64,000 bases of DNA from Owenia fusiformis (lineage: Eukaryota > Annelida > Polychaeta > Sabellida > Oweniidae). Each line of letters opens with the position of its first letter. Position 1 is the first letter of the stretch. The notes below the pieces were generated by a model. That model did not search any database and was not told where the DNA came from. It saw only the letters and a list, made by a program, of their open reading frames with translations. The stretch covers positions 12,250,842-12,314,841 of the forward strand of contig CAIIXF020000011.1 in the NCBI GenBank assembly GCA_903813345.2, in the 5' to 3' direction. Of this stretch, positions 10,701 through 44,100 are shown one piece after another. The position numbers and the translations under genes were made by a program.

Positions 10701-13700
10701 TTGCTGGCATTATAATACTAAAGGGCTGCAGTTGAATCTGTAATAACTTAAAGTGAATATTTTGAACAAATCAGGATGAGAGTCAACAGAGCCGTTCAAA
10801 AGGTGTTGACCTCAAATTATAAGTGTAACTACATTATAATCTTAATGCTGATGTTGTGTGTATATCTGTACACTAAGAACAAAGAAACAATCCTCGACTG
10901 TCATTCGACCACTGCGAAAGTTTTGACAGATCTGAGGCAAGAAGAGAAGGTAAAACTAAGACATCACGATGACAATATCACTTTATCAAGCAAGAAGAAT
11001 GATATAATTGAGAATAGCAACAACATAACTACCATTGGAACTATGTCTCAAATAGGAATTGACAATAAAACTATGCCTCAGATAAGAAGTACCAAAAACA
11101 GTTTGCATGACAGTGCAAATAGCACAACGTCAAGCAAGCCAGTTATACAACTGAATATATCTGATACCAGAAAAGGGACAGAAAATGATTTAATTGATCC
11201 AGTTAACTATACAGCTGAAATCAGCAATCCACATGATTTTGAATTCACAATTAATGAAAATCAAACTTGCAAGAACGATGTTTTTCTTCTTGTGTATGTC
11301 TACACAGCACCAGGAAATTCTGCTCGCAGAATGGCCATCAGGAGTACGTGGGGAAATACAACTTCATATAATAAACCTGACAAAAATGTCAAAGTAATTT
11401 TTTTGCTTGGAAAAACTACTGAGACTCTACAATCCAAAATAAGAGCAGAGAGTTTACTATTTAAGGACATAATTCAAGAGGACTTTGTGGACTCATACAG
11501 AAATTTAACATATAAAGGTGTGATGGGATTAAAATGGGTTGGAAAGTATTGCCCAAATGCTACATTTGCTCTCAAAGTTGACGATGATGTTTTTGTCAAT
11601 ATATTCAGTTTAGTAAAATATTTGGAGAAAAGTAACAGTAATAAGGTTATATATGGACATATGGGGCCATTAGGATCAAAGAGACCTGTTTTCAGGGACA
11701 AAAAAAATAAATGGTATGTATCGAGGGAGGAATTTCCCATGGACTTTTTCCCACAATACGCTAGTGGTATGGCATATGTTATTTCCGGCTCTGCAGTGAA
11801 GACATTATATGACGCATCGCTACATTTGAAGTTTGTCTCGATGGAGGATTTTTACATTACAGGCCGTGTTGCAAAAGCTGTTAATGTCGCATTACACAAC
11901 ATGCATGGCTTTCTGTTCAGTCCAAGTGTTGAACACTTTTTTAAACAAAAAAAAGAACAAACAGAAATAATTCAAAACAATAACTGGAAGTTTGCATTCA
12001 GTGGATCAAACAATATGACTTCTTTAAATATTTTATGGCATAAATTAATATCTGAACAAAATATGTAACCCATTTTATGATTTTGGATGTTGTAGGGGAG
12101 CCTGAAATAATAATAATATTTAAAAAATATTACTCATTTTAATATCAAAATCATTCAGATTGATTTTTATGTCACCACCAAAAGGGGTGACATATTGTTA
12201 TAGTCTCCAACTATTTTGTGGATGGTGTTTGGCATTTAGCAGTTGGTGTCGGCATTCAGCGGTTGTCAACTGTGTCAAATGGCAGGTAGTGAAATTTTGC
12301 ATGTTAATGCCTTCTTGGTATTTTGTAGTTGGTCATTGGTCCATGTCCTACATGTGACTAAAAGATAACTAGCAATATTCAACGGAAGTCACGTGACTTC
12401 CGGTGAATATCAAATGATATTCAACGGTCATGAATGGACATTTGAAAAACATTCCCAACCTTGTTACCCACATGGCCAATACTGTGAGTATGAACACAAT
12501 GGTTCCATTTTCATTGACCCATTGCAATATTACAATTAATTATAATATTATCATGAAACCTTAAATTAAAATACTTCAATTTGGGAGTTGATATTTATTG
12601 ACTATACAATTTGGTAGTTGATATTTATTGTATTTATTGTTATATTGTAGAAGAAATATAAATGTATTTCAATGTTAACATATGACTTATTTAATTATAG
12701 AAGATGTTATGACAGTGATATAATAAAACAAATATTTAATTCTATTTTCGATGAATACCTGTGACACTTTCACAAGATGCTATTCCACTAGCCCTTCGGG
12801 CTTCGTGGAATATCACTTGTGAAAGATGCACAGGCATTCACCTCAATAGAATTAAATATTTGTATATTATACAATTATTTCATTCTGTTGAGTTGAATAT
12901 ATGTGTATCTTTCACAAGCAATATTCCTCAAAACCCTGGAGGGTAGGGGAATAATAATCCTGTGAAAGATAATTACCATCAGTAAGCCCAAAGTCAGAAT
13001 CCTTCTTGAATAGAGAGTCATTCATTACTTCTGATTTCGAATTCAACCTTGTCGGCTGCTTGCATGTATCAACCGCAACGGCTTGTTGCTAGTGCACCAC
13101 AGGAGTTCGATTGCAATAAACCGTAATAAACCAATAAACTGTCAACTATATGCAGATATCAGGCTACATACATGTATATAAGTTAGACACATATTTTCAA
13201 ACCAATGAAATCACCATTGAAATATGTAAGAGCTAGAACTGCATTCCTTGACAATAATCTGCTTTGAATTGGATTTTAACACTTCTTTACAATTTTACAC
13301 CGATTACTTTATGATTTCCATTAGAAAAATGAACATCACATCAGTCTAAACATTGATTTTCATGGTTTAAATGTGTTTAATATTATTTATGTATCACTCA
13401 AATCTTTAGGGGTTATTCAATTTAATTCTTCATTTACTAAATATGAAATATGTTGATTTGTTCTATGTGATGTATATTTTATCTGTATATTGTAGTGGAT
13501 CTGATGTTATATTATATGACTTAGATTATACATCATATTTGATAACCTCATCCTTTAATTAATACTCTATTTTATAATTTTCTAACTTTAAGTTTCTGAC
13601 TATATATCATATATGAAAGAAAGGTGTATGTTACTTGTAGGTAGAGATTTCTTAAAGAGATGTTTGAAATTATTCTTAGAAATAAACACTTGACATAGTT

Positions 13701-16700
13701 AAACCCTCTCTGGCTTCAAAAGGTAACTCTACTGTTCTGAATGCCCCAATGATGTTGAATTATTTATTACTTTCCAGTCTATACAGAATGCCATTGTGCA
13801 ATTAAAACTGCTTGGTGCCATAGAAAACACAGATGATAATAAGGTCAGTATGATAAAATGACAGCAAGATTATCAAACACCTCAAGAAAAAGTATGCCGA
13901 AAGGATTTTGTTTACTACTTGAGTTTGTAATCTTTAGAAAACTCTTTAGAATTCAAACAAATCGTAGAGCCAGAAAAAGTGGTCAGATCTATTGATTTTA
14001 GTGGCATTTTTATTTGGATACCTTTAGCTTTTTCCAAATACAGTGATATGTATTGAAAGTCACTGAACATTATTATAACCTATTTAACTTATTCAACCTA
14101 TTTTATTCTAAGATAAAATGATGATAGATTAGTGTCTAAAACAACCAAGTCATCTGATATTTCAAATACACGAGGCAGATGCAACATTACAGTGGTTGAA
14201 AGATAATTCACCAAATTTGAAGATTGCAAGTGACAAGTTTAATACTCCATTTATGAGAACTTGTAAGGAAACATGTATTGTTTGACAATAAAATCTCAGA
14301 TATCGTGTTTGAATGACTATCAAGGCCAATCTTATCCTGCTCAATTATTTGAGCTATTGTTTACCAGAATTTATGGATCCAGTGGCAAATGTATTTCATT
14401 TATGAGAACTTCCAGATGTAAGGGAAGATGTTTTGTCCAAGACAATAACATATCAGATATTGTGTTTGAATGTCTGTCAAGACAAATCTGAAGTAACAAT
14501 CCATAAGTTGACATTTACACACATTTCAATAACAATGAAAATTTTTTCTAATTGATTAAAATTCAAAAAATATAATTTCAATGGAAAAGGCATTGCAAAA
14601 TTATTCATTACAAATATAATAAATTTTTGATACACATGCATTAGACTGCATGTCAATTAAAAAAAAGTAAACCAATAATAATAATATTTTTTGGCCTAAC
14701 AACATTACAAAGATCTAAACTACAAAATTGATGGAATTAGCCTTAAATCATGCAATATTTGGCTCAGGCTTTTATTCTTATTTATAAAATTGTATTTAGC
14801 AGCAAATTGATAAACTTTTGAGGCATCACATATGCGACAATCCCACCCCCATAATCAATGAAAATAAAACCATTAGAAAGAAGAAGACAGGACCCTTAAA
14901 ATGCTTTTTATTTGAAGCTTCCAGCTCAATTTTGAAGGAAGTTGCATCAATTTTTGGAAAATTCAAAATAAATCTTATTTTTTTAGGCTTGTTTATGCCA
15001 CAATCGCACTGAAAACCTGACTGAAAACCGAAAATTTTTTTTGCGATCGCAAGTTGAAATCAATTTTTCCACTAAAGCAGAGACATGCTGACTTTATATC
15101 CCCGATAACATTATAGAATGAAATTTGGGGAATTTTAGTTGCTCATCATAGTAAAGAGCAGCCTTTAAGGTAGCAAGAATATAGTCTTAATGGAGTGAAA
15201 TCAATTTAATACAACTTTTACACTGTTTTAGTGCTTGACAAACTTCAGACACATTTGGGACTAATCCACAATGGTTCAATTATTAGGAATTTGTAATATT
15301 ATCACAGTATACGAAATGGGAACTTCTGGATGTCGTATCATCAATAAATTTGAATAATGGGGTGGAGCAGATTGTTTTTAAAAGAAATTTCAATATTTTC
15401 AGCTTATTTGCAGAGAAAATTAACCAGCACATGCAATGACAATGTCAATCATGCTTCTTTATGAAATTCATTGGACGAAGTCAATTATTATCCAATATGA
15501 AGTTTGACTACTGATCATTTTCCCATTATAATATACCATGTCTTAATGAAGGCGTCTAATTATCATAGTCTAAATAAGCTTGGTTTTTGGAGTTGGGTGC
15601 GAGTAACAAATGGCAGGTTTTTATATTTTGCTTTGATATTGCCTTGTTGATAGTTTGCCAAGTGCAATGTTATGTTATGCACATTTTTAAAAATACAATA
15701 CAGCTCATTCTACTGTGTTGTTACCTAAGTAGGGATAAAAATTGTTTAATTTTCTATTTTAGCTTACTCCTCTTGGAAGAAAGATGGCAGCATTTCCACT
15801 TGACCCTAGTCTTGCAAAGGTCATCCTGAAAGCAGTTGATTTTGACTGCCTGTAAGAAATACGTTTATAAAGATTTGAGATATCTGTACAAATATGGAAG
15901 TAATGAAAGATTTGCAAAAACAGAATGTCCACTTTTCAGAATTACACTACAATTATATACATCTGTATATTGTCAAATGCCTAGAATCCAGATCATATTT
16001 CTTATCTTCATGCTAGCTAAAATCAATGTATTTTCTTAAAATTAAGTTTAGTTCAAAGAATTACATTTTGGACTTTTTACATCCTCCTAAGCAGGTATCC
16101 AGAATCCGTACCTCCTTCTTCCCCCTGCTATAACCAATTTGGAAGTGCCCGATTAAACTGAATCACGTGATCTATTTATCTGAATGATTTATACATGATT
16201 TCTGTCACAGTATTGCGACAGCCAATCAGATTGCGAGTTCTTAATCGGGGAAATGTTTACTGCTTATCGCAGGGGGTAAAAAGAAAGAATATATTCTGGA
16301 TTTTGAAGCCCTGTGATCGGAGGATGGACTTTTTAGAACATGTGATGACATTTGGAATGATGTCAGTCTAAAATACTGTAAAACTAACAATTTTGTATTG
16401 ATTTGTAAAAAGATCAGTCTCTTAAGTTTCAGTTTAAAAGATATTAAAGCATTGTATAAGATAACAATATTTGGTAAGTTAAACTTTGTTTATATTTCAG
16501 TGAGGAAATATTGACCATCGTCTCTATGTTATCAGTTGAGTCAATCATGCACAGTCCTGCCAGTAAACGCGAGGAGGCCTCTGCTGTACAGGCAAAGTTC
16601 ATCTCACATGAAGGGGACCATCTCACCTACCTCAATGTATATAGAAGTTATAAAGGAGTCAGTGGGAGTAAGGTATGGGGCCATCTCACCTATTTCAATA

Positions 16701-19700
16701 TATATAGAAGTTATAAAGGAGTCAGTGGGAGTAACGTAAGGAGCCATCTCACCTATTTCAATATATATAGAAGTTATAAAGGAGTCAGTGGGAGTAAGGT
16801 AAGGGGCCATCTCACCTATTTCAATATATATAGAGGTTATAAAGGAGTCAGTGGGAGTAAGGTAAGGGGCCATCTCACCTATTTCAATATATATAGAAGT
16901 TATAAAGGAGTCAGTTGGAGTAAGGTAAGGGGCCATCTCACCTATTTCAATATATATATAGAAGTTATAAAAAAGTCAATGGGAGTAAGGTAAGGGGCCA
17001 TCTCATCTACCTTAATGCATATAGAAGTTATAAAGGAGTCAGTGGGAGTAAGTAAGGGGCCATCTCATCTACCTCAATGCATATAGAAGTTATAAAGGAG
17101 TCAGTGGGAGTAAGGTAAGGGGCCATCTCACCTATTTCAATATATATAGAAGTTATAAAGGAGCAAATTGAACTGAGGTGAGAAGTGAGATAAGGGACCT
17201 CCTCATCTATTTCAATATATAGAAGTTATAAAGGAGCCAATGGAACTGAGGTAAGGGACCATCTCAACCATCTCACCTATTTCAATATATATAGAAGTTA
17301 TAAATTAGCCAATGGAACTGAGGTAAGGGACCATCTCACCTATTTCAATGTGAATAGAAGTTATAAAGGAGTCAGTGGGAGTAAGGTAAGTGGCCATGTC
17401 ACCCATTTCAATATATATAGAAGTTATGAAGGAGCCAATTGAACTGAGGTAAGGGACTATCTCACCTATTTCATTGTGTATAGAAGTTATAAAGGAGTCA
17501 GTATGAGTAAGGTAAGGGGCCATCTCACCTATTTCAATATATATAGCAGTTATAAAGGAGCCAATGGAACTGAGGTAAGGGACCATCTCACCTATTTCAA
17601 TATGTATAGAAGTTATAAAGGGTTCATAGCTACTTTAGATGAAGATTTAATCATTAGTTTGTATACTTTCAGAATTGGTGTCATGAAAACTTTATCAATG
17701 CGAGAAATATGAAAACAGCGTGTGATATCAGGGGTCAGTTACGTGATATATGTATGAAACAGGACATGCAGTTCAAGTCCTGTGGAAGGGAAACTGCTGT
17801 AATTAGAGAATGCTTGGCTCATGGTTTCTTTATGAATGCTGCAGAGCTACAGAAGGATGGCAAATATATTTCTGTAAGTTAAATGCTACTGAGTACACAA
17901 TAGATTTCGCAACATACTTATACATGTAGAGTGTTTGTAAATCCCTTATGTTTATAACTTATAAAAGTGTGTGTAATACGTCATCATTTATTACGCATCA
18001 CTATCAACTTATGAGGAACCTTCGCTTATAAAAGGTTGTTTATAAGTGAGGAAATACTTATCTTGATTAGACTTTGTGCAATCATAGTGATACTTGTTAT
18101 TAAGTCATATTACTATCCAATTCCCCTTATAAACAAGGAATTTGGAGGAAAAAACACTCTTTTTTGGTGACAAGAACATTAGAATTGAGAGATGAAATAC
18201 ACATTTCTGTACTTATTATAACATCTTTTTGTGAAACACCAAATTTCAATTCACTTACTTATAAAGTATAGCTATACATAAAAACATGAGTTGTGCTTTC
18301 ATTTATGAGCGAAATCTCTCTAGTGATCTTAAAATTGATCTTATAACAGTAAACACTGTTTGATGGAACACCAATCTGTAATGAATGAACTAAATAATGT
18401 TTAGGAACAACAATCTGTTATGAAAGAACCAAATAATGATAAGAACACCAATCTGTAATGAAAGAACCAAATATTGTTCAGGAACACCAATCTGTAATGA
18501 AAGAACCAAATATTGTTCAGGGACACCAATCTGTAATGAAAAAACAAATATTGTTCAGGAACACCAATCTGTAATGAAAGAACCAAATAATGTCCAGGAA
18601 CACCAATCTGTAATGAAAGAACCAAATAATTTTCAGGAACACCAATGTGTAAAGAAAGAACCAAATTGTTTAGGAACACCAATCTGTAATGAAAGAACAA
18701 AATATTGTTCAGGAACACCAATCTGTAATGAAAGAACCAAATATTGTTCAGGAACACCAATCTGTAATGAAAGAACCAAATATTGTTTAGGAACACCAAT
18801 CTGAAATGAAAGAACCAAATATTGTTCAGGAACACCAATCTGTAATGAAAAAACCAAATATTGTTCAGGAACACCAATCTGTAATGAAAGAACCAAATAT
18901 TGTTTAGGAACACCAATCTGAAATGAAAGAACTAAATATTGTTTAGGAACACCAATATGTATTTTTTTATTTTATTTTTTATTAAAGTGTCACCTATTGT
19001 ACAAAATAGCCAGCCCAAACTGGGCTTATGAGACACATGAAACATTTAATTATAAATCCTATATATTTGATTCTTTCTTATATTAAAAATACAGTTCAAA
19101 TAGTTTGCAATACTCTTGGTTTTAAGTATATTTATAAATGAATCAATATTTGGTGTTAAAAATGAGAGTCTCTCTATTTTATAGGCATTACATTCAAATA
19201 TTAAATGTTTCTCATCTTCAACTTTATTTAAATTGCAAACAAATTGGCACAGTCTGTCTTGTATTGGTGTTTTTTCCTGGTTGTGAGTATCTCCCAGTCT
19301 CTATTACTAGTGGTAGGATGCCACTCCCTAAGTTGTGCTATCAGTGAACGTTGTGACAATGTTAGTTGACCAATCTGTAATGAAAGAACCAAATATTATT
19401 TAGGAACGTAAATCTGTAATGAAAGAACCAAATATTGTTTAGGAACACCAATATGCAATGAAAGAACCAAATATTGTTCAGGAACACCAATCTGTAATAA
19501 AAGAACCAACTATTGTTTAGGAACACCAATCTGAAATGAAAGAACCAAATATTGTTTAGGAACACCAATCTGTAATGAAAGAACTAAATCATGTTTAGGA
19601 ACACCAATCTGTAATGAAAGAACCAAATTATGTCCAGGAACAGCAACTTGCAAGACTTTGCCTCTTTTGATGCAGAAGTTTCAGAAATTATTTTTATGTA

Positions 19701-20320
19701 TACTTTAAAAAATCTATCATGTAATGTTCATATAATAATATAGTAATTATAATCTAATTATTTTCTAATTATATGTAGGTGGCCAGCAGACAGCCAGTTG
19801 CCATCCATCCATCATCTGCTATATTCAGATGTAAACCCTCATATGTGATATACAATGAACTTGTTAAGACCTCAGCCTGCTATATGAGGTATTTATATCT
19901 TCTTTGGATCTTAATCACGCCAGTCTCTCCAACATATGAGTCACTATGTGTCTATGTCCCTATGTCCACTTCCTTGTGAATATTAGTGCTAGATCATGAA
20001 AAATGTGTGGAATGATGAAATGTGAACTTTAAATCTTTTTGCTTTGAAATGGACCAAGCTTGTATCGTGGCATTGAATGTTGGAAGTAGTGCATTTCATG
20101 ATCTACATATGTTTTTCATTGAATTTCAGCTATGGTATATCCATCTTACTAATTCATAGGGAATTCACCTTATTTCCATTATCCTATGGCTTATATATAT
20201 CCCATGTCATATATTTAAAGTGCTATTTAATTTGTTTGCAGAAATGTTTGTGTGGTGGACCCAGATTGGATATTTGAAGCAGCTCCTAACTATTTCAAAA
20301 CTAGACCACTACACACGTGA
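1616..20320 (+). CDS. DHX33: DHX33-like DEAH-box RNA helicase, copy A, C-terminal 416 residues in ten exons (5' part outside window)
   Basis: Joined exons: 1616-1787, 5007-5104, 6502-6587, 8199-8377, 13778-13843, 15763-15851, 16501-16672, 17673-17873, 19779-19888, 20242-20320 (stop TGA 20318-20320). All junctions keep frame and all introns are GT-AG. The product reads in order: helicase motif IV region ([13 protein letters not shown]), motif V ([11 protein letters not shown]), motif VI (QRSGRAGR), HA2 (winged-helix/ratchet) and the OB-fold region with [10 protein letters not shown]. It follows human DHX33 (about 707 residues) closely to the C-terminus, including the ending [15 protein letters not shown]. 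It matches DHX40 and other DEAH proteins much less well. Known DHX33 proteins are NTP-dependent RNA helicases linked to ribosomal RNA synthesis, translation initiation and dsRNA sensing. The RecA1 domain (Walker A, DEAH box) must lie upstream. The gene is unusual in hosting a nested galactosyltransferase in intron 4 and satellites in introns 7 and 8. Confidence 0.92.
2193..4058. mobile_element. (CCGT)n-headed repeat element, intron 1, unit A only
   Basis: Starts TTATCCCACCGAACGAAGTT, followed by a CCGTCCGT-rich run (about 2231-2280). It ends with TTCGGTGGGATTTGCTACTC and a pyrimidine tail near 4058. The first and last bases form a short inverted pair around CCCACCGAAC. The body is a tandem series of modules of about 130 bp, each with 'ATAACTCAAATACCAGTGAA', a GGTTCAAATTTTATATGATG stretch and CAAAATGGCGGCCATTTTTC. 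Units B and C have an uninterrupted join here (ATGTTA then CTACATAATG near 23660 and 51460), so this is an insertion present only in A. Superfamily not assigned. Confidence 0.75.
3238..3647 (-). mobile_element. LINE ORF2 C-terminal fragment inside the intron 1 element
   Basis: This block interrupts a (CCGT)n-element module. On the minus strand it reads in two overlapping pieces. The piece from 3603 contains [20 protein letters not shown], the CxxC...H...C zinc-binding pattern found after the reverse transcriptase in many LINE ORF2 proteins. The piece from about 3430 continues with charged, LINE-like sequence and ends without other domains. It is a dead 5'-truncated fragment nested in another repeat. 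Confidence 0.65.
5007..5104 (+). CDS. DHX33: DHX33-like exon 2: helicase motif V
   Basis: Acceptor TGCTATTCCAG ends at 5006; donor AA|GTAAGT starts at 5105. It encodes [18 protein letters not shown] and then [24 protein letters not shown] is motif V, which couples NTP binding to RNA contact. The exon is 98 bp and ends in phase 2. It exists only once in the window: in units B and C its position is taken by the tRNA-Asp array. Confidence 0.93.
5105..6501. other. Intron 2, copy A
   Basis: After about 270 bp of AT-rich sequence missing from B and C, homology to them resumes near 5376. The intron carries the TIR-bounded element at 5488-6169. No exon was found. A tract near 6240-6300 with many TTCAAAGAAATC-like bases is shared with 28750 and 57080 and shows no reading frame. 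Confidence 0.65.
5488..6169. mobile_element. TIR element with internal tandem repeats
   Basis: Starts ATGTCACCACCTAG and ends TAGGTGGTGACAT, an inverted pair of about 13 bp. Inside are four imperfect copies of a module of about 130 bp built on GACCTTGAGAAGGTC and TTGAAGCAAGTTGAAAAA. The right end also folds as a hairpin (TATGTCACCAC / GTGGTGACATA, 6144-6170). Close copies sit at 28091-28733 and 56440-57074. A related end in the other orientation lies at 12169-12300. Non-coding; probably a non-autonomous DNA transposon. Confidence 0.65.
6502..6587 (+). CDS. DHX33: DHX33-like exon 3: helicase motif VI
   Basis: Acceptor TTTATTCCAG ends at 6501; donor GCAG|GTGAGG follows 6587. The first base completes the lysine codon begun in exon 2. 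It encodes [13 protein letters not shown] then [24 protein letters not shown] is motif VI with the arginine fingers; its last arginine comes from exon 4. Length 86 bp, ending in phase 1. Confidence 0.93.
6588..8198. other. Intron 3, copy A
   Basis: Contains the A-only element 6746-7911. Flanking it are about 150 bp and 290 bp shared with B (from 29151 and to 30570) and C. Just upstream of exon 4 all copies have a stretch that could be read as coding, but in A one base of an A-run is missing and the frame is broken. Confidence 0.65.
6746..7911. mobile_element. (CCGT)n-headed repeat element, intron 3, unit A only
   Basis: Begins TTATCCCATAGAACGAAGTT with CCGTCCGT repeats, and ends TTCGATGGGATTCGCTACGC plus a short tail. 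It is the same family as 2193-4058 with different internal modules. Here the unit of about 115 bp carries AACTCGAAAAGTAGTGGAGC, TTCATATTTGGTATGTGAAT, GGCACACTGTCCTATGACAC and GGCGGCCATTTT. The same module recurs in every unit of the tRNA-Asp arrays in B and C. Absent at this site from B and C. Confidence 0.72.
8199..8377 (+). CDS. DHX33: DHX33-like exon 4: HA2 domain start
   Basis: Acceptor ATGGTTTTAG ends at 8198; donor GAG|GTAAGA follows 8377. The first two bases complete glycine of motif VI, then [19 protein letters not shown] and [20 protein letters not shown] follow, the usual start of the HA2 region after motif VI. Length 179 bp, ending in phase 0. A differs from B and C by one residue near the end (PSTE against PSAE). 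Confidence 0.93.
8398..9245. repeat. Long inverted repeat (foldback) in intron 4
   Basis: The left arm (about 8398-8585) and right arm (about 9045-9245) are imperfect reverse complements. Both carry ACTCAAAATATT, CAGAACATATACCTAAAAC, TTGCTCTGTAAAA and TATAAAATGCTAATTATGAG on one strand or the other. The loop is about 460 bp. The transcript could form a long stem immediately downstream of exon 4. The equivalent in B is 30771-31613. In C about 110 bp of the left arm is deleted. Confidence 0.72.
9967..10464. mobile_element. pogo/Tigger-like MITE
   Basis: Ends CAGTAGAACCTGTATATCTG and GACAGGTTTTACTG are inverted, and the element is flanked by TA on both sides (9965-9966, 10465-10466). This TA target and the CAGT start are typical of the pogo branch of Tc1/mariner. 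The interior repeats 'CTAATCCGAACACCT'-like phrases and has no reading frame. Unit B has the same insertion; unit C does not. Confidence 0.8.
10776..12068 (+). CDS. Beta-1,3-galactosyltransferase (GT31), intronless, nested in intron 4, copy A
   Basis: Single 430-residue frame. This family of Golgi type II membrane enzymes transfers galactose or N-acetylglucosamine/galactosamine in beta-1,3 linkage from UDP-sugar to glycans. A short basic N-terminus is followed by one hydrophobic segment (about residues 18-32) and a long stem rich in N-glycosylation sites. The catalytic domain is about 165-400. Family hallmarks seen: [10 protein letters not shown] (184-193), [25 protein letters not shown], the metal-binding DDD at 269-271 in [30 protein letters not shown] and EDFYITG from 357. 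Length fits the family. The start is the first ATG of the frame and is shared by copy B. Same strand as the host gene, so the host pre-mRNA contains it in sense. The acceptor sugar cannot be told from sequence. Copy A has SARRMAIR where the family normally has a threonine or asparagine after RR. Confidence 0.93.
   Translation: MRVNRAVQKVLTSNYKCNYIIILMLMLCVYLYTKNKETILDCHSTTAKVLTDLRQEEKVKLRHHDDNITLSSKKNDIIENSNNITTIGTMSQIGIDNKTMPQIRSTKNSLHDSANSTTSSKPVIQLNISDTRKGTENDLIDPVNYTAEISNPHDFEFTINENQTCKNDVFLLVYVYTAPGNSARRMAIRSTWGNTTSYNKPDKNVKVIFLLGKTTETLQSKIRAESLLFKDIIQEDFVDSYRNLTYKGVMGLKWVGKYCPNATFALKVDDDVFVNIFSLVKYLEKSNSNKVIYGHMGPLGSKRPVFRDKKNKWYVSREEFPMDFFPQYASGMAYVISGSAVKTLYDASLHLKFVSMEDFYITGRVAKAVNVALHNMHGFLFSPSVEHFFKQKKEQTEIIQNNNWKFAFSGSNNMTSLNILWHKLISEQNM
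12169..12360. repeat. Repeat element end with hairpin, 3' of the galactosyltransferase
   Basis: Begins with a hairpin TATGTCACCACC / GGGGTGACATA and continues with TTTAGCAGTTGGTGTCGGCA-like sequence. This is the reverse complement of the right end of the element at 5488-6169 (CGCCAACTGCTGATC..., 6050-6170). It starts about 100 bp after the galactosyltransferase stop. The copy in B is 34554-34715. Confidence 0.6.
12383..12402. other. 20-bp perfect palindrome centred on CACGTG
   Basis: CGGAAGTCACGTGACTTCCG is its own reverse complement. It holds an E-box (CACGTG) flanked on both sides by a GGAAGT core as bound by ETS factors. It is also in B at about 34857-34876. It may be the tip of a palindromic transposon rather than a regulatory site. 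Confidence 0.6.
12728..12970. mobile_element. Pair of hairpin elements
   Basis: The first hairpin (12728-12863) has arms ACAAATATTTAATTCTATT and its complement. It pairs nearly throughout, including CCTGTGACACTTTCACAAG, to a central AGCCC-TTC-GGGCT. The second (12907-12970) pairs ATCTTTCACAAG with the GTGAAAGAT end. Both share the TTTCACAAG motif. Copies in B lie at 35165-35425. Non-coding palindromic MITEs. Confidence 0.68.
13778..13843 (+). CDS. DHX33: DHX33-like exon 5
   Basis: Acceptor TTACTTTCCAG ends at 13777; donor AAG|GTCAGT follows. It is exactly 22 codons: [20 protein letters not shown] and NK. This is the HA2 helix that reads 'AIAQLDLLGALE' in vertebrate DHX33. In phase 0 on both sides, so the exon could be skipped without a frameshift. 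Confidence 0.92.
13844..15762. other. Intron 5, copy A
   Basis: AT-rich, no recognised exon, RNA or transposon. Several short frames (near 14273, 14818, 15587) differ in length from their counterparts in B and show no domain. One duplicated phrase (TATGAGAACTT...) occurs at about 14252 and 14400. Nothing else seen. Confidence 0.6.
15763..15851 (+). CDS. DHX33: DHX33-like exon 6
   Basis: Acceptor TTTCTATTTTAG ends at 15762; donor CCT|GTAAGA follows 15851. It encodes [20 protein letters not shown] and ILKAVDFDC, the conserved HA2 stretch (G+KMA.FPL.P...K). It ends in phase 2. Confidence 0.93.
15852..16500. other. Intron 6, copy A, with imperfect MITE-like hairpin
   Basis: About 16075-16340 is bounded by GGACTTTTTACATCCTCC and GGAGGATGGACTTTTTAG-like ends. 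Paired internal blocks are CCCCCTGC and GCAGGGGG, with mixed-quality pairing elsewhere. The same block is in B at about 38425-38690. No coding content. Confidence 0.5.
16501..16672 (+). CDS. DHX33: DHX33-like exon 7 (source of the 63-bp minisatellite)
   Basis: Acceptor TATATTTCAG ends at 16500; the first donor is AAG|GTATGG at 16673. It encodes [19 protein letters not shown] and, at its 3' end, [28 protein letters not shown]-type sequence is the signature of the OB-fold region in DEAH helicases, so this segment is ancestral exon. The last 60 bp of the exon plus the donor are serially copied into the intron. The first copies remain open and in frame (see 16673-17620), so the true 3' end of this exon may vary. 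Confidence 0.9.
16612..17620 (+). repeat. 63-bp exon-derived minisatellite with repeated splice donors, copy A
   Basis: About 16 tandem units derived from the 3' end of exon 7 plus donor. The consensus has CCATCTCACCTATTTCAATA, AGAAGTTATAAAGGAGTC and AGTGGGAGTAAG|GTAAGG. Donor-like sites repeat at 16673, 16736, 16799, 16862 and 16925, all in phase 0, and the frame stays open to 16993. A 2-bp gain (TATATATATA) then breaks the frame. Later units vary (GCCAATGGAACTGAG|GTAAGG) but keep donor-like GTAAGG. Confidence 0.88.
17673..17873 (+). CDS. DHX33: DHX33-like exon 8
   Basis: Acceptor ATACTTTCAG ends at 17672; donor TCT|GTAAGT follows 17873. Sixty-seven codons start [19 protein letters not shown] and go through QLRDICMKQ to [23 protein letters not shown] and R.QL are constant in the OB region of DHX33. 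Phase 0 at both ends, so splicing from any in-frame minisatellite donor keeps the frame. Confidence 0.93.
18366..19645. repeat. 39-bp satellite, copy A (about 22 units, split by a LINE tail)
   Basis: The unit contains GGAACACCAATCTGTAATGA followed by AAGAACCAAATATTGTTTA, 39 bp in all. Variation is mainly TTTA/TTCA before GGAACA and CACC/CATC. Being 13 codons long, it gives open frames on both strands (13-residue repeats such as [13 protein letters not shown] on the minus strand), which are not taken as proteins. Not related to the 63-bp minisatellite of intron 7. Confidence 0.88.
18958..19365 (-). mobile_element. 5'-truncated LINE tail in the 39-bp satellite
   Basis: The left end is a T-run followed by ATTAAAGTGTCACC, i.e. 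the poly(A) tail of a minus-strand element. On the minus strand the frame reads [20 protein letters not shown] then [11 protein letters not shown], the C..C-H-C zinc-binding tail of LINE ORF2, and ends at a stop before the tail. The same insertion is in B at 46565-46970, so it predates the duplication. Confidence 0.7.
19779..19888 (+). CDS. DHX33: DHX33-like exon 9
   Basis: Acceptor TTATATGTAG ends at 19778; donor GAG|GTATTT follows 19888. It encodes [20 protein letters not shown] and [26 protein letters not shown] is the constant OB-fold strand of DHX33 and its DEAH relatives. It ends in phase 2. Confidence 0.93.
19889..20241. other. Intron 9, copy A
   Basis: 353 bp, AT-rich, with a TTTGTTTGCAG acceptor. 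No feature seen; B is the same apart from small changes. Confidence 0.6.
20242..20320 (+). CDS. DHX33: DHX33-like terminal exon 10, copy A
   Basis: The first base completes an arginine codon; then [18 protein letters not shown] and KTRPLHT precede stop TGA. Vertebrate DHX33 ends in the similar stretch 'ID..WL.EAAPEYF', so the C-terminus is natural and not truncated. No AATAAA was seen in the next 300 bp. Confidence 0.92.
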
Positions 20321-29064: not shown

Positions 29065-29150
29065 AACGTTTAACCCCCGTAGTGGACTGGACATGTTGAA
29101 GGTTCAGAAGACCTCCAAGGCTCAGGCATGGCAAAGGTCAGGGAGGGCAG
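29065..29150 (+). CDS. DHX33-like exon 3, copy B (motif VI)
   Basis: Acceptor TTTATTCCAG and donor GCAG|GTGAGG are as in A. One silent change (GTC to GTT in KVQK). It begins with the base that would complete a codon from an exon ending in phase 2, as exon 2 at 5104 does. Confidence 0.88.
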
Positions 29151-32100
29151 GTGAGGATGTTTATGTAACTATGTACTTTGTACAAGATAGCGTGTATTAT
29201 AGGGTGTATTATTATTTTAGCCACTGTTTTCTTATTTGTGACTGGTGCTTCTGTTACATTCTGTTATTCATGGATTTCAATCAAATTTGCAGGAATTATA
29301 GTTTAAACATATTCAAACTTACTTTTGGAGTTTCAGCTTCAAGCGATTTGATTTGTCATTTCTGTGGTTGGCATAGCAACGCGAGTAGCGCTAAGGCGGG
29401 GCACATGGAATAACTGCAGTAGTTTCTGTGTTACATTTAGCATGGAAAACCGATTTTGACTCCATATTTAAAGCTTTCTTGGTGCATCTCTATTATAAAA
29501 AATTTCTATTGTTTGTTTTATGATATAAAAGTCAAATAAATACTTTTTTAATGATATTCAATGGCTTATTATTCATAACTTAATGCAGGCATTACACAGA
29601 AAGCGACCGGGATGCAATTTCTCTTCCACTTGGACAATTCCCCCTCCCATACTGCTGCCATAATCACTAAAGAAATTGAACAGCTGAGATTAGAGCAACT
29701 CAAGCATCCACCTTATTCACCCAACCTAGCGCCAAATGATTTATACTTCTTTGCTGTATCAAAACGGGACTAATGAGGACATGCATTTGAGAATACTCAT
29801 GCCATACGTTCACATGTGTTAAACAGACTTCAGGAAATGAGTCAAGAAGAATTCTGTGAAGTATTTGAGGAAGGTTCAAGAGGCAAGAGTTTCTGTCTAA
29901 AATGGAGGAAATTATGTAAAATAAATTGATAAATTGGCAAAGAATTTCAGGCTTATAGTTATAACTATGTTTAAGCATCTATTTTAAGTCATTAACATGA
30001 TAGAATCTCTTTTTAAAACATTTAAAACATGCAAATATACTGCAGTTATTCCACCTGCCCCGCCTTAGCGCTACTCGCGTTGCTATGACTACCACAGAAT
30101 TAACCAATCAAATCACCTGAGGCTGAAACTCCAACTATAAGTTAAAATATGTTAAAACTATAATCTCTGAAACTTTCAATGCAATCCATGAACAAATAAA
30201 AAAGTTATGACATTATTATCGTTATTTCCTGAACACCCTGTATGTTTACACTTTAATTTGTGATTACAATTACAAGTATATAATTTGTCAATGTTAATGC
30301 CTTGTTGCCAATGATATATTTATAATAGTATTAAATAATAGCAAAATCATAATCAATAGTTGCCTAGATAAAGTAGGTACACTAAAACCTCCATGTGTGA
30401 ACACTGAAGTACATTTAGTAGATTTCTCTATGATATATTGTATCAGACCGTTCATATTTGACCTGTTAACTACTTAATGTTAACTACTATGACCCAAGAT
30501 GAAACTGAGGCATTGAATAACTGGAGGGGTAAAAAGGGAATTATAATGAATAATGAAATGATGGTTTTAGGACGTGAATCAGCTGGAACGTGTTATCGTC
30601 TTTATACAGAGGAGGACTATGAAGCATTGCCAACAAACACACGCCCTGAGATCCTCAGGTGCAATCTATGCAGCGTAACTTTACAGCTTTTGGCTTTGGG
30701 AATTAAAAATATAGCTCAGTTTGACTTCATGGATAAGCCATCTGCTGAGGTAAGAGGTGGAGACAGTAAATTGACAATTGATCAATGTTTTACTCAAAAT
30801 ATTACATACAGAACATATACCTAAAACACTGATGTGACACTTTGTGACGTCAAAATGACCAAAAGCAGGTTGCTCTGTAAAAGTATGCAGACAAAAATCC
30901 TTTTATATCAGTATATAAAATGCTAATTATGAGCAGAATGTTATTAAATATTCTCTGATTGTCCTCATATATTTTACTAACAGCCCTAGACCATGTTATA
31001 CTACACTCAACCCTATCCTGCCAGAAATTATTTGAGAAAATCAGATATATGTCATCACAATAAGCACTGCTATTATTAATATATTAATGTTCAATGCATT
31101 ATGATTCAAAATTATTGCAATAAAATGGAAATATCATAGATTCATTTGAATTAAATACCAAAATTACATCAAGAATATTTAGAAGATAAACCCCTGAGAA
31201 AATCAAATTGACACATTAGTCACAAAATCATACTCGTTGAATTCATTTGGCAGAAAAGGGGTACGTGTTAAGGAAACATAGCATAACAATTAACAGTTAG
31301 GCAACAGTGTTGTAAGACCCAAGTGTAAGGACTTTTGCATTGTTATTATACAACTTTCAGTGACATCTTTATTTTATGAAATATACAACTGTCATGTACA
31401 GGATCATTTGTAAAGTCTGTAACATATTCTGATTGCTCATAATTAGCATTTTATATACAGACTTTTGTCTGCTTAGTTTTACAGAGCAGCCTGACCTTGG
31501 ACAGTTTGGCAATCTTAGGTAACTTTGATGTCACAAACTTGGAAAAAGTCACATCATTGTTTTAGGTATATGTTCTGTCTGTAATTTTTTGAGTAAAAAT
31601 TAATCAATCGTCTAATGGATAATGTGTATTATATGCTTTTAACTATGTGTGAAAAGTTTCATTAACTTTACTGGTCATTTACTAAAGGTATATGAGGTTT
31701 TACTTAATAGGAAAAGACTTTTGCTACTGAGGGTAAAGTAAAGAAAATCGATTATTTCCTGTGCACTGCTTTGCTGTATGCAAATGAATTAAATCAATGA
31801 TGTCAATGGGTGAAGGTTTTGAGGAATTAGTACAGCCAGAATATTTAACCTTCAAAACATGTAAAAACCTATTATGTAGGAGAGACATTACAGAACAGAA
31901 CATAAAGTATGTGGTGCTTCTATGATTGATGTGTAAAGTGTTAAATGTAGACAACAGAAGACTAAGGAATAGACAACAAATAACTAGTACAAAATCATAT
32001 CAATGTCTGGGATATTAAGCAAAACTGAAATGCTAATTCACTTCCCGGGATTCACTTGGCAGTGAACATCATACTACACAAATATCCATGTATTTTAAGT

Positions 32101-38100: not shown

Positions 38101-41100
38101 TTTCTATTTTAGCTTACTCCTCTTGGAAGAAAGATGGCAGCATTTCCACTTGACCCTAGTCTTGCAAAGGTCATCCTGAAAGCAGTTGATTTTGACTGCC
38201 TGTAAGAAATACGTTTATAAAGATTTGAGATATCTGTACAAATATGGAAGTAATGAAAGATTTGCAAAAACAGAATGTCCACTTTTCAGAATTACACTAC
38301 AATTATATACATCTGTATATTGTCAAATGCCTAGAATCCAGATCATATTTCTTATCTTCATGCTAGCTAAAATCAATGTATTTTCTTAAAATTAAGTTTA
38401 GTTCAAAGAATTACATTTTGGACTTTTTACGTCCTCCTAAGCAGGTATCCAGAATCCGTACCTCCTTCTTCCCCCTGCTATAACCAATTTGGAAGCGCCT
38501 GATTAAACTGAATCACGTGATCTAATTATGCGCAATGACTTATACATGATTTCTGTCACAGTATTGCGACAGCCAATCAGATTGCGAGTTCTTAATCGGG
38601 GAAATGTTTACTGCTTATCGCAGGGGGTAAAAAGAAAGAATATATTCTGGATTTTGAAGCCCTGTGATCGGAGGATGGACTTTTTAGAACATGTGATGAC
38701 ATTTGGAATGATGTCAGTCTAAAATACTGTAAAACTAACAATTTTGTATTGATTTGTAAAAAGATCAGTCTCTTAAGTTTTAGTTTAAAAGATATTAAAG
38801 CACTGCATAAGATAACAATATTTTGTGAGTTAAACTTTGTTTATATTTCAGTGAGGAAATATTGACCATCGTCTCTATGTTATCAGTTGAGTCAATCATG
38901 CACAGTCCTGCCAGTAAACGCGAGGAGGCCTCTGCTGTACAGGCAAAGTTCATCTCACATGAAGGAGACCATCTCACCTACCTCAATGTATATAGAAGTT
39001 ATAAAGGAGTCAGTGGGAGTAAGGTATGGGGCCATCTCACCTATTTCAATATATATAGAAGTTATAAAGGAGTCAGTGGGAGTAACGTAAGGAGCCATCT
39101 CACCTATTTCAATATATATAGAAGTGATAAAGGAGTCAGTGGGAGTAAGGTAAGGGGCCATCTCACCTATTTCAATATATATAGAGGTGATAAAGGAGTC
39201 AGTGGGAGTAAGGTAAGGGGCCATCTCACCTATTTCAATATATATAGAAGTTATAAAGGAGTCAGTGGGAGTAACGTAAGGAGCCATCTCACCTATTTCA
39301 ATATATATAGAAGTTATAAAGGAGTCAGTGGGAGTAAGGTAAGGGGCCATCTCACCTATTTCAATATATATAGAGGTGATAAAGGAGTCAGTGGGAGTAA
39401 GGTAAGGGGCCATCTCACCTATTTCAATATATATAGAAGTTATAAAGGAGTCAGTGGGAGTAAGGTAAGGGGCCATCTCACCTATTTCAATATATAGAAG
39501 TTATAAAAAAGTCAATGGGAGTAAGGTAAGGGGCCATCTCATCTACCTTAATGCATATAGAAGTTATAAAGGAGTCAGTGGGAGTAAGTAAGGGGCCATC
39601 TCATCTACCTTAATGCATATAGAAGTTATAAAGGAGTCAGTGGGAGTAAGGTAAGGGGCCATCTCACCTATTTCAATATATTTAGAAGTTATAAAGGAGC
39701 CAATTGAACTGAGGTGAGAAGTGAGATAAGGGACCTCCTCATCTATTTCAATATATAGAAGTTATAAAGGAGCCAATGGAACTGAGGTAAGGGACCATCT
39801 CACCTATTTCGATATATAGAGGTGATAAAGGAGTCAGTGGGAGTAAGGTAAGGGGCCATCTCACCTATTTCAATATATATAGAAGTTATAAAGGAGTCAG
39901 TGGGAGTTAGGTAAGGGGCCATCTCACCTATTTCAATATATATCACGGGGTACCATCGAATAATTTTGGCAACGTACCGGAGAACGACATTTTACTAAGA
40001 AATGGCAATAATTGAGCACAATATATTTTTTAACTGGAGTTCTACTTTGATTTTGACAAAAGTAAGTATTCCATGCAATGGCTATTTCATTTATGAGTTT
40101 GTAGGAATTCTGTTGGAACCCAGTTCTGATCAAGTACGAAGTTATTGAAATCGGCGCAGTCGGACTTTGCTCCGAAAGATGGTTTTTCGATTATAACTTT
40201 TTACAACATTTAAGTATAGACTTTTGAAAAAAGTACAGAATAGTCCTTATACTATTGAATAATTCTGTTATTTCTGATTCACACGACTCTGATTTGTTTA
40301 ATTAAAAAAAAGTTTTAAAAATATTGCTTAGGAACGTAACCGGAGCTGGGAACGTAACCGGAGCAGATCAGTTGAATTATATAATTTAAAAAAATAAAAT
40401 ATATGATTTAAAGCATATATATTAATAAATACGCATTCGAACAATCCCGTATGTTTTTAAATTAGTATATGTGCTTTAAATCATATATTTTATTTTTTTT
40501 GATTAAATAATTCAACTGATCTGCTCCGGTTACGTTCCCAGCTCCGGTTACGTTCCTAAGTAATATTTTTAAAACTTTTTTTTCAATTAAACAAATCAGA
40601 GTCGTGTGAATCAGAAATAACAGAATTATTCAAAAGTATAAGGACTATTCTGTACTTTTTTCAAAAGTCTATACTTAAATGTTGTGAAAAGTTATAATCG
40701 AAAAACCATCTTTCGGAGTAAAGTCCGTCTGCGCCGATTTCAATAACTTCGTACTTGATCAGAACTGGGTTCCAACAGAATTCCTACAAACTCATGAATG
40801 AAATAGTTATTGCATGGAATACTTACTTTTGTCAAAATCAAAATAGAACTTTAGTTAAAAAATATATTGTGCTAAATTATTGCCATTTCTTAGTAAAATG
40901 TCGTTCTCCGGTACGTTGCCAAAATTATTCGATGGTACCCCGTGATATATAGAGGTGATAAAGGAGTCAGTGGGAGTAAGGTAAGGGGCCATCTCACCTA
41001 TTTCAATATATATAGAAGTTATAAAAAAGTCAATGGGAGTAAGGTAAGGGGCCATCTCATCTACCTTAATGCATATAGAAGTTATAAAGGAGTCAGTGGG

Positions 41101-44100
41101 AGTAAGTTAGGGGCCATCTCATCTACCTTAATGCATATAGAAGTTATAAAGGAGTCAGTGGGAGTAAGGTAAGGGGCCATCTCACCTATTTCAATATATA
41201 TAGAAGTTATAAAGGAGCCAATTGAACTGAGTTGAGAAGTGAGATAAGGGACCTCCTCGTCTATTTCAATATATAGAAGTTATAAAGGAGCCAATGGAAC
41301 TGAGGTAAGGGACCATCTCACCTATTTCTATATATATAGAAGTTATAAAGGAGCCAGTAGGACTGAGGAATCATTTCACCTATTTCAATGTATATCAAAG
41401 TTATAAAGGAGCCAGTGGGTGTAAGGTAAGGGGCCATCTCACATATTTCAATATATTTTGAAGTTATAAAGGAGCCAATAGAACTGAGGTAAGGAACCAT
41501 CTCACCTATTTCAATATATACATGTATAGAAGTTCTAAATTAGCCAATGGAACTGAGGTAAGGGACCATCTCACCTATTTCAATGTGAATAGAAGTTATA
41601 AAGGAGCCAGTGGGAGTAAGGTAAGGGGCCATGTCACCCATTTCAATATATAAAGAAGTTATGAATGAGCCAATTGAACTGAGGTAAGGGACTATCTCAC
41701 CTATTTCATTGTGTATAGAAGTTATAAAGGAGTCACTATGAGTAAGGTAAGGGGCCATCTCACCTATTTCAATATATATAGCAGTTATAAAGTAGCCAAT
41801 GGAACTGAGGTAAGGGACCATCTCACCTATTTCAATGTATATAAAAGTTATAAAGGGTTGATAGCTACTTTAGATGAAGATTTAATCATTAGTTTGTATA
41901 CTTTCAGAATTGGTGTCATGAAAACTTTATCAATGCAAGAAATATGAAAACAGCGTGTGATATCAGGGGTCAGTTACGTGATATATGTATGAAACAGGAC
42001 ATGCAGTTCAAGTCCTGTGGAAGGGAAACTGCTGTAATTAGAGAATGCTTGGCTCATGGTTTCTTTATGAATGCTGCAGAGCTACAGAAGGATGGCAAAT
42101 ATATTTCTGTAAGTTAAATGCTACTGAGTACACAAAAGATTTCGCAACATACTAATACATGTAGATTGTTTGTAAATCCCTTATGTTTATAACTTATAAA
42201 AGTGTGTGTAATACGTCATCATTTATTACGCATCACTATCAACTTATGAGGAACCTTCGCTTATAAAAGGTTGTTTATAAGTGAGGAAATACTTATCTTG
42301 TTTAGACTTAGTTATTGGGAGGCAATTATAGTGATACTTGTTATGAAGTCATATTACTATCCAATTCCCCTTATAAACAAGGAATTTGGAGGAAAAAACA
42401 CTCTTTTTTGGTGACAAGAACATTAGAATTGAGAGATGAAATACACATTTCTGTACTTATTATAACATCTTTTTGTGAAACACCAAATTTCAATTCACTT
42501 ACTTATAAAGTATAGCTATACATAAAAACATGAGTTGTGCTTTCACTTATGAGCGAAATCTAGTGATCTTAAAATTGATCTTATAACAGTAAACACTGTT
42601 TGATGGAACACCAATCTGTAATGAATGAACTAAATAATGTTTAGGAACAACAATCTGTTATGAAAGAACCAAATAATGATTAGAACACCAATCTGTAATG
42701 AAAGAAGAAAATATTGTTTTTTTTTTTATCATCTTTCATATTTATTGTAAGCACAAGTCATTTAGATACAATTACAAGGGGCAAAGCCCTGTAAGCATTA
42801 GATGTCCCCTTATATAAATAAACAATAAAGTACAATATTCATTTTAACCTGGATGTCACCTGTAAATGGTAGAATGCCTTGCAATGAAACAAAAGATAGG
42901 AGGGCTGCTGATATCCTGGGGGGGGGGGGGGGGGGGTAGTATGTTGAAAATTGGAAACAGGTCATAGGCAGGAAAATATTTAGATTCTGGTTGTGTTTTC
43001 AATGAGATAATTCGCAACCAGTGAAAAGAGATTATCCATTTCTAATTGGGTTAATGATGGATCCCCAAAAAGAAAAAAGTGAATTTTGTCTTGCTGAGTT
43101 CTGAAATGAGTTTAATAAGTCCCCATATATCCCTAAAGTATCTGTTATTAATTTATTTCTTTGTTGTTCTTTTAGAGGGCATTTGAAAAAGAAGTGGGGA
43201 AAAGTTTCAGGGGAACCACATAAACAATTTGATGACTCAACTGAGCTCCAATTGTGGGCTTTGAGCTGGGCTTTTAAAATTAAATCTACCCTGGCTCTAT
43301 TCAGATAAAGTTCTTGTTGACGAGTTAATTTTAAACAAATTGTTGAAACAACACCAGGGAACAAATTTAATTTAAGTGTTCTTTTAAAAGATGCGATAGT
43401 TGGCAAGAGCTTTTGTTCCAAGGGAACAGATCCTGGATCATTCCATAGGTTCATCATTTTGTATATTGGAGACTTATGTGGATAGTGAATAGGGATAGTG
43501 AAATCTCGAGATTTCCTTAACAATCTTGCTTGAGGGTTTATGAATGGCCTAAATAGATCTGAGATATAAATAGGTGTTAAATCGTTCACGGCTTTGTACA
43601 TAATTGTTTTAAAGTGGAGGATCCTCCTCTCAGTTAAGGTGGACCAGTTCAAAATGTTAAGTACTTTGGAAGTGCTGGAGCCTGGGAGAGCACCAGAGAC
43701 TATTAGACCAGCTTGGTAATGGAGACTGTCAAGTCTGTTAAGGTCACAAATAGGAGCACAGTCGTAAAGGATATCACAATAATCAAATAAGGACTGAATA
43801 TAAACTGTATAGAGAATATTTAATTGTTTTGATTTTAGTCTACCCTTAAGTGCTTTTAAGGGGTTAAGAGCTGTTTGGATTTTTGCACAGATAGAATTTA
43901 TATGTGCTGACCCACTTAATTTTTTATCAAAAATGAAGCCTAGGTGTTTATGAATGTCAGTTTTTTCAATTTGTTTATCATTTAAGATAACTGGTGGATA
44001 GATTGGATTATTTTTCTTAGAAAAGGTCATTTCTCTGCTCATTTCTGGTTTAAATCTAGTTTCCACTGTTTAGACCAGGCTTCGATTTTTTTTAGATCAT

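Follow-up and report, generated by a model that had tools for sequence, protein, structure and literature searches.

Can the end of a coding exon, repeated into the intron behind it, provide a gene with a series of 5' splice sites that lengthen its protein in regular steps? This question is raised by a 64,000-nucleotide window of the genome of the annelid Owenia fusiformis (GenBank assembly GCA_903813345.2, contig CAIIXF020000011.1, positions 12,250,842 to 12,314,841 of the forward strand; positions below are those of the window), in which the end of one exon of a DHX33-like DEAH-box helicase gene recurs, together with its splice donor, as a 63-bp minisatellite. Judged from the sequence, the repeat is of exonic origin, is confined to this locus within the limits of our genome search, and is unequal in copy number among the three paralogous copies of the locus (A, B, and C). 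The ladder of donors is probably a neutral, locus-specific, exon-born minisatellite in which the first donor would be mostly used while later donors leak. We regard the array as real and uncommon, and an outcome in splicing as possible.

Structure of the array and its donors

The 63-bp unit combines ~54-55 bp of the exon end with ~8-9 bp of the intron. In copy A, Tandem Repeats Finder (TRF) reported a period of 63, 15.7 copies, and a score of 1288 at 16611-17621 (Table 1), and the head-to-tail units fall within the 10-100 bp of a minisatellite. The 1000-bp intron is nearly all array, with ~50 bp before the acceptor lying outside the unit. The first-pass annotation of this DNA had proposed that the exon end plus its donor is repeated into the intron and that the template was exonic; TRF and the unit list confirmed the former, and unit 1 is the exon end itself. 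Its claim of five in-phase donors also held, since the first five donors are spaced exactly 63 bp apart, are all in phase 0 (steps of 21 codons), and are followed by the open exon reading frame until the first stop codon, TAA, at 16991. The units after donor 5 measure 65, 62, 63, 76, 69, 63... bp. Because unit 6 has 65 bp, the in-phase ladder of copy A ends there, and with unit 7 at 62 bp the later donors are off phase 0.

Donor strength was scored with a vertebrate donor matrix. On this scale, the array intron (1 kb) has 11 GT sites scoring ≥6.5, against 0 in six other introns of copy A that total 11,729 bp and include none of the eight introns preceding exon 9. Therefore, the donor ladder is not a product of chance.

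When three units were searched against the genome, the 23 matches obtained each fell inside array A, B, or C on contig C11; these counts are lower bounds, as very common words were skipped. A mobile or dispersed repeat was rejected as the identity of the unit, 23 of the 23 matches lying inside the three arrays of the locus. This confinement indicates that the repeat arose at this locus, earlier than the separation of the copies, and that its number has changed since.

The intron itself might have been made by tandem duplication, that is, by intron gain from exonic repeats, given that the array fills nearly all of it and that tandem-repeat introns are reported from fission yeast (PMC3629103). 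Against this, neither the acceptor (ttcag|AATTGG) nor the final ~50 bp of the intron belongs to the unit. The unit therefore supplies donors only, and we give intron gain by the tandem-duplication model a very slight chance.

Host gene and position of the exon

The host gene appears to be a DHX33-like DEAH-box helicase, the choice between DHX33 and another DEAH member hanging on similarity to human DHX33. A human DHX33 sequence served as the tblastn query by which exons were assigned, similarity being judged exon by exon. The helicase exons span -14074 to 20317, the first exons lying upstream of the window. When the 16 exons found by homology were joined at their GT/AG borders with donor 1, they formed an open frame of 644 codons plus a stop with the DEAH motif present; at least one additional N-terminal exon (MESVTPAKRQKFSG) is visible upstream, outside this join.

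The exon that seeded the array (16501-16672), exon 7 of the first-pass annotation, is the 13th of the 16 helicase exons, with the acceptor ttcag|TGAGG and the exon end AGTAAG|GTATGG at 16673. The repeated block had been assigned to the oligonucleotide-binding (OB) fold. This placement needs correction, as the HA2 ratchet-like domain (Pfam HA2_C, 23.4 bits, cut-off 21.3) ends in this exon and the OB fold lies farther downstream at ~19710-19895 (Pfam OB_NTP_bind, 41.9 bits, cut-off 29.5), both domains being above their Pfam cut-offs. The peptide encoded by exons 12-16 with donor 1 matched 54 distinct Protein Data Bank (PDB) sequences in total, and in the five alignments listed, all with DHX8, it aligned over 209 residues with zero gaps. 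Residues added by later donors would separate the HA2 helix that ends in YRSYK from the helix containing WCHENF.

Three paralogous copies of the locus

The locus is tandemly repeated over the sequence from ~5380 onward, with copy B from ~27996 and copy C from ~56351. Copy B carries exons 9-16 (29065-48168), and copy C has exon-like stretches 9-13 with a length difference in exon 9. Exons 14-16 of copy C were not found in the 100 kb downstream of the window, a span including a stretch of 220 N downstream of this copy's array (L004). Copies A and B differ by ~2.6% substitutions over 15,618 aligned positions, the misregistered array included. In the exons (codons cut by exon borders omitted, exon 9 of C dropped), the 972 codon positions of exons 9-16 show 7 synonymous and 1 nonsynonymous changes between A and B, and the 501 positions of exons 10-13 show 3 synonymous and 11 nonsynonymous changes between A and C. 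Because of this ratio, copy C looks like a decayed copy.

The arrays comprise 16 units in A, about 30 in B, and 4 in C, with 5, 8, and 3 in-phase open donors, respectively. Repeat number thus varies among the copies, in a comparison of paralogues rather than of alleles or individuals. Array B consists of 16 + 15 pieces flanking a ~1-kb palindrome, or about 30 units when the split unit is counted once, so that the tracts at 38969 and 40945 belong to one intron with the palindrome between them. Unit types 2-3-4 occur twice consecutively in B, and types 6-10 occur on either side of the palindrome; it is the doubling of the three-unit block 2-3-4 that gives B eight in-phase open donors rather than five. 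Array C has four units (7171-7434 of L003) and four in-phase donors, the fourth lying past a TAA in unit 4.

Such differences could also arise if the repeat number, or the tandem arrangement of A and B, reflected mis-assembled haplotypes. The A/B substitution level is possible between haplotypes, and the stretch of 220 N lies downstream of the array of copy C. Nevertheless, the copies are joined within one 37-Mb contig and bear different insertions and array structures, and a diverged third copy, C, has the same array start. An assembly artefact is therefore most improbable.

Several other features of these copies were observed. The array of copy C (7062-7434 of L003) stops after four units and is followed by unrelated sequence. 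A search with the first 497 bp of the palindrome in array B gave 723 first-look candidates in the genome; among the 40 of these that were scored, copies up to 99% identical were present on contigs C1-C12, and the palindrome is, by this similarity, a member of a young foldback family. Helicase exons 1-8 are missing from copy B, but the exons that it does have look constrained, with 7 synonymous differences from A and 1 nonsynonymous one. With C as the outgroup for exons 10-13, four of the six A/B differences fall on B (all synonymous) and two on A (one synonymous, one nonsynonymous). Copy B may be an alternative 3' half of the gene.

Tests for selection on the repeat

Variants were counted against the consensus in the 14 in-phase intronic units (4 of A, 7 of B, and 3 of C). 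The 12 distinct variants comprised 11 nonsynonymous changes, one of them a stop in C, and 1 synonymous change, which is near the neutral expectation of 0.77 nonsynonymous (p=0.32) and differs from the 1:7 of the A/B exons (Fisher p=0.0008). Unit 6 measures 65 bp in A, 61 bp in B1, and 63 bp in B2, which reads as separate slips of a TA repeat that broke the frame in A and B1. Purifying selection on the repeat reading frame is thus indicated neither by the 11:1 variants nor by the state of the frame, which A and B1 lost at unit 6. Moreover, among 20,000 simulated draws of exon-end units, 34% were in phase and a fraction of 0.234 were both in phase and open; when the real 54+9 layout was applied to other intron starts, 13 of 14 remained open. 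Selection on the frame was rejected for now, as an in-phase, open ladder is not rare in simulation and the variants are unconstrained.

Divergence was compared in 41 of the 47 units of A and B, with six exon ends or cut pieces dropped and C excluded. The donor 9-mer had a mean divergence of 0.103 versus 0.095 in the rest of the unit, and 32 of 63 windows were lower. Selection for the donors themselves, e.g., for U1 binding, was also rejected, the 9-mer being no less divergent than the remaining unit. The additional units accordingly give no sign of selection at the level of protein or donor in these tests. Taken together, the unconstrained variants, the unconserved donor motifs, the simulation, and the frame breaks at unit 6 indicate that selection does not preserve the extra peptide, donor use being a separate matter. 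The additional copies have the look of neutral by-products and not of segments useful to the protein.

Proposed origin and choice of donor

The array most likely began with a tandem duplication across the exon-intron border, covering about 55 bp of the exon end and about 8 bp of the intron. A single initial duplication would have come about by slippage between short like sequences, AAGGGGACC in the exon and (T)AAGGGG at the intron start, perhaps helped by the AAGGGG(A)/(T)AAGGGG match that the two ends share. Unequal exchange or slippage would then have expanded the array, and since each added unit brings a further donor with it, the result is a ladder of 5' splice sites. Later growth and shrinkage probably proceeded by whole units and by the three-unit block, with decay by substitutions and small insertions or deletions.

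In the favoured reading, the spliceosome would act mostly on the ancestral donor 1, the sole donor giving a standard DEAH protein. We infer this for most transcripts because only donor 1 gives the protein length of the family and because the exon sequences are constrained. The later in-phase donors (3-5) would leak, producing forms longer in 21-residue steps, and the distal donors, off phase or past a stop, would be disfavoured, or their transcripts removed by nonsense-mediated decay. The first-pass annotation had held that any of the five donors could join the next exon; by score, donors 3-5 reach 7.6 each, donors 1 and 2 are weaker (4.6 and 2.9), and most distal donors score 6.7-8.8. Donor 1 ranks 8th among the 15 donors of the gene. 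As it is outscored by later donors, leakage is plausible.

Several points weigh against predominant use of donor 1 and neutrality of the ladder. The score of donor 1 lies below those of donors 3-5 and of most distal donors, so that on strength alone it should not be expected to win. Donor 1 is GTATGG in A (16673) and B (39024) and AAT|GTAAGG in C (position 7232 of L003), against an array consensus of AAG|GTAAGG; it seems to have been weakened differently in the A/B lineage and the C lineage. These separate changes weaken the favoured reading or at least point to relaxed selection on donor 1, and such relaxation, with other donors standing in, would fit its weakening. When 5' splice sites are duplicated, the donor closest to the acceptor is reportedly often favoured in vitro, contrary to the choice suggested here. 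As for the selection tests, variants inside one array are non-independent events, and the GGTAAG core is slightly below average in divergence (0.073), though 25 of 63 windows of the same size are lower.

A rival reading is a ladder in use, with appreciable splicing at several in-phase donors, a series of helicases with 0, 21, 42, 63, or 84 added residues (up to 147 in B), and alleles that differ. Repeat number and donor choice would then determine the length of the helicase in steps of 21 residues, individuals would differ, and donor 1 would be free to weaken; we consider this rather unlikely. The donors are in phase and open, only one of the gene's 15 donors (that of exon 6, at 7.9) is not outscored by donors 3-5, the copies vary by whole in-phase units, and donor 1 is weakened in both lineages. 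On the other hand, the inserted peptide is unconstrained, in-phase and open units are expected in 23% of simulated cases, and the eight equally strong distal donors of A would spoil the frame. No spliced retrocopy, which might have recorded such transcripts, was found among the 25 genome-wide matches to the 216-aa peptide of exons 12-16. The close matches correspond to the exons of the three copies of the locus, and the single match covering most of the query (C12) was rejected as another helicase, being 29% identical. A ladder in regular use is accordingly given a minor share of our confidence.

The strength of donors 3-5 relative to donor 1 could also mean that one later donor (e.g., 16799) is now the fixed exon end and that the exon is permanently lengthened. 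This is distinctly improbable, as the sequence past donor 1 is unconstrained, the family length is matched by donor 1 alone, and none of donors 3, 4, and 5 is singled out, their 9-mers being identical.

Comparison with known systems

The rule of donor choice has so far been studied mostly with engineered duplicates. Constructs with competing duplicated 5' splice sites were reportedly engineered by Reed and Maniatis in 1986 and by Eperon et al. in 1993. As in those constructs, equivalent donors with authentic exon sequence upstream compete here for one acceptor; the constructs reportedly had two or three engineered donors, whereas the Owenia locus is natural and has five to eight in-phase and many out-of-phase donors. 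Because the donor and the 54 bp of true exon in front of it recur in each unit, the intron would stage a natural competition among about a dozen near-identical 5' splice sites in each transcript. If the gene is functional, its transcripts would reveal which rule wins, namely the first transcribed, the strongest, or the nearest to the acceptor. The locus also suggests a route by which an exon end seeds its own minisatellite and brings in-phase coding sequence within the reach of splicing.

A 2007 PNAS paper is said, by its title, to treat human introns from tandem arrays and alternative splicing. No described case matching this array was found in the literature on minisatellites and donors or on DHX33 repeats, within narrow search terms and few subscription journals. 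The closest described system is in fission yeast, where SPOG_01682 and SOCG_00815 have introns inside 24-nt tandem repeats and, in one expressed sequence tag (EST), the stretch spliced out exceeds the annotated intron (Zhu and Niu 2013, PMC3629103). The two cases share coding tandem repeats with a unit that is a multiple of three in phase 0 and a cryptic splice site in each unit, making more than one boundary possible. They differ in that the yeast repeat makes a new intron within an exon, whereas the 63-bp Owenia unit spans an exon-intron border that was already there, contributes donors alone, and belongs to a helicase gene of an animal (PMC3629103). A duplicated segment bearing splice signals is likewise involved in intron gain by tandem duplication (2016, PMC4974935); that model has one duplication and a new intron, whereas the Owenia array has many copies and no new acceptor.

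Feature coordinates and neighbouring elements

Table 1. Features of the arrays and flanking exons in copies A and B (window positions).
Feature	Position	Strand	Evidence
Exon 7 of the first-pass annotation, copy A; last 55 bp = array unit 1	16501..16672	+	homology, Pfam HA2_C
63-bp minisatellite array A; 16 units including exon end and 40-bp last piece	16611..17621	+	TRF, unit list
Donor 1, AAG|GTATGG; ancestral exon end by homology	16673..16678	+	
Donor 2, AAC|GTAAGG; low score, in phase, +21 residues	16736..16741	+	
Donor 3, AAG|GTAAGG; strong, in phase, +42 residues	16799..16804	+	
Donor 4, AAG|GTAAGG; strong, in phase, +63 residues	16862..16867	+	
Donor 5, AAG|GTAAGG; strong, in phase, +84 residues	16925..16930	+	
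Distal array A; eight strong donors off phase or past stop 16991	16933..17621	+	unit list
Following exon (exon 8 of the first-pass annotation), acceptor ttcag|AATTGG	17673..17873	+	homology, splice borders
Copy B homologous exon; one synonymous difference from A	38852..39023	+	
Array B, first part; 8 in-phase open donors 39024-39465	38962..39943	+	
Palindrome, ~1 kb, near-perfect; repeated foldback element inserted in array B	39944..40950	.	minus-strand self-match
Array B, second part; unit types 6-10 again, then to types 11-16	40951..41856	+	
Copy B exon following array	41908..42108	+	

Intact open reading frames (ORFs) of 430 aa for a galactosyltransferase (10776-12068 and 33161-34453; Pfam Galactosyl_T for the one in copy A) lie, on the same strand, within the intron that separates helicase exons 10 and 11 and were duplicated along with the block. 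A 39-bp minisatellite is found in the next intron of A at 18365-18961 (~15 copies) and 19369-19646 (~7 copies), and in B at 42605-42719 (3 copies), 44709-46565 (48 copies), and 46973-47485 (13 copies). Its presence in the next intron indicates that the locus is prone to minisatellite growth.

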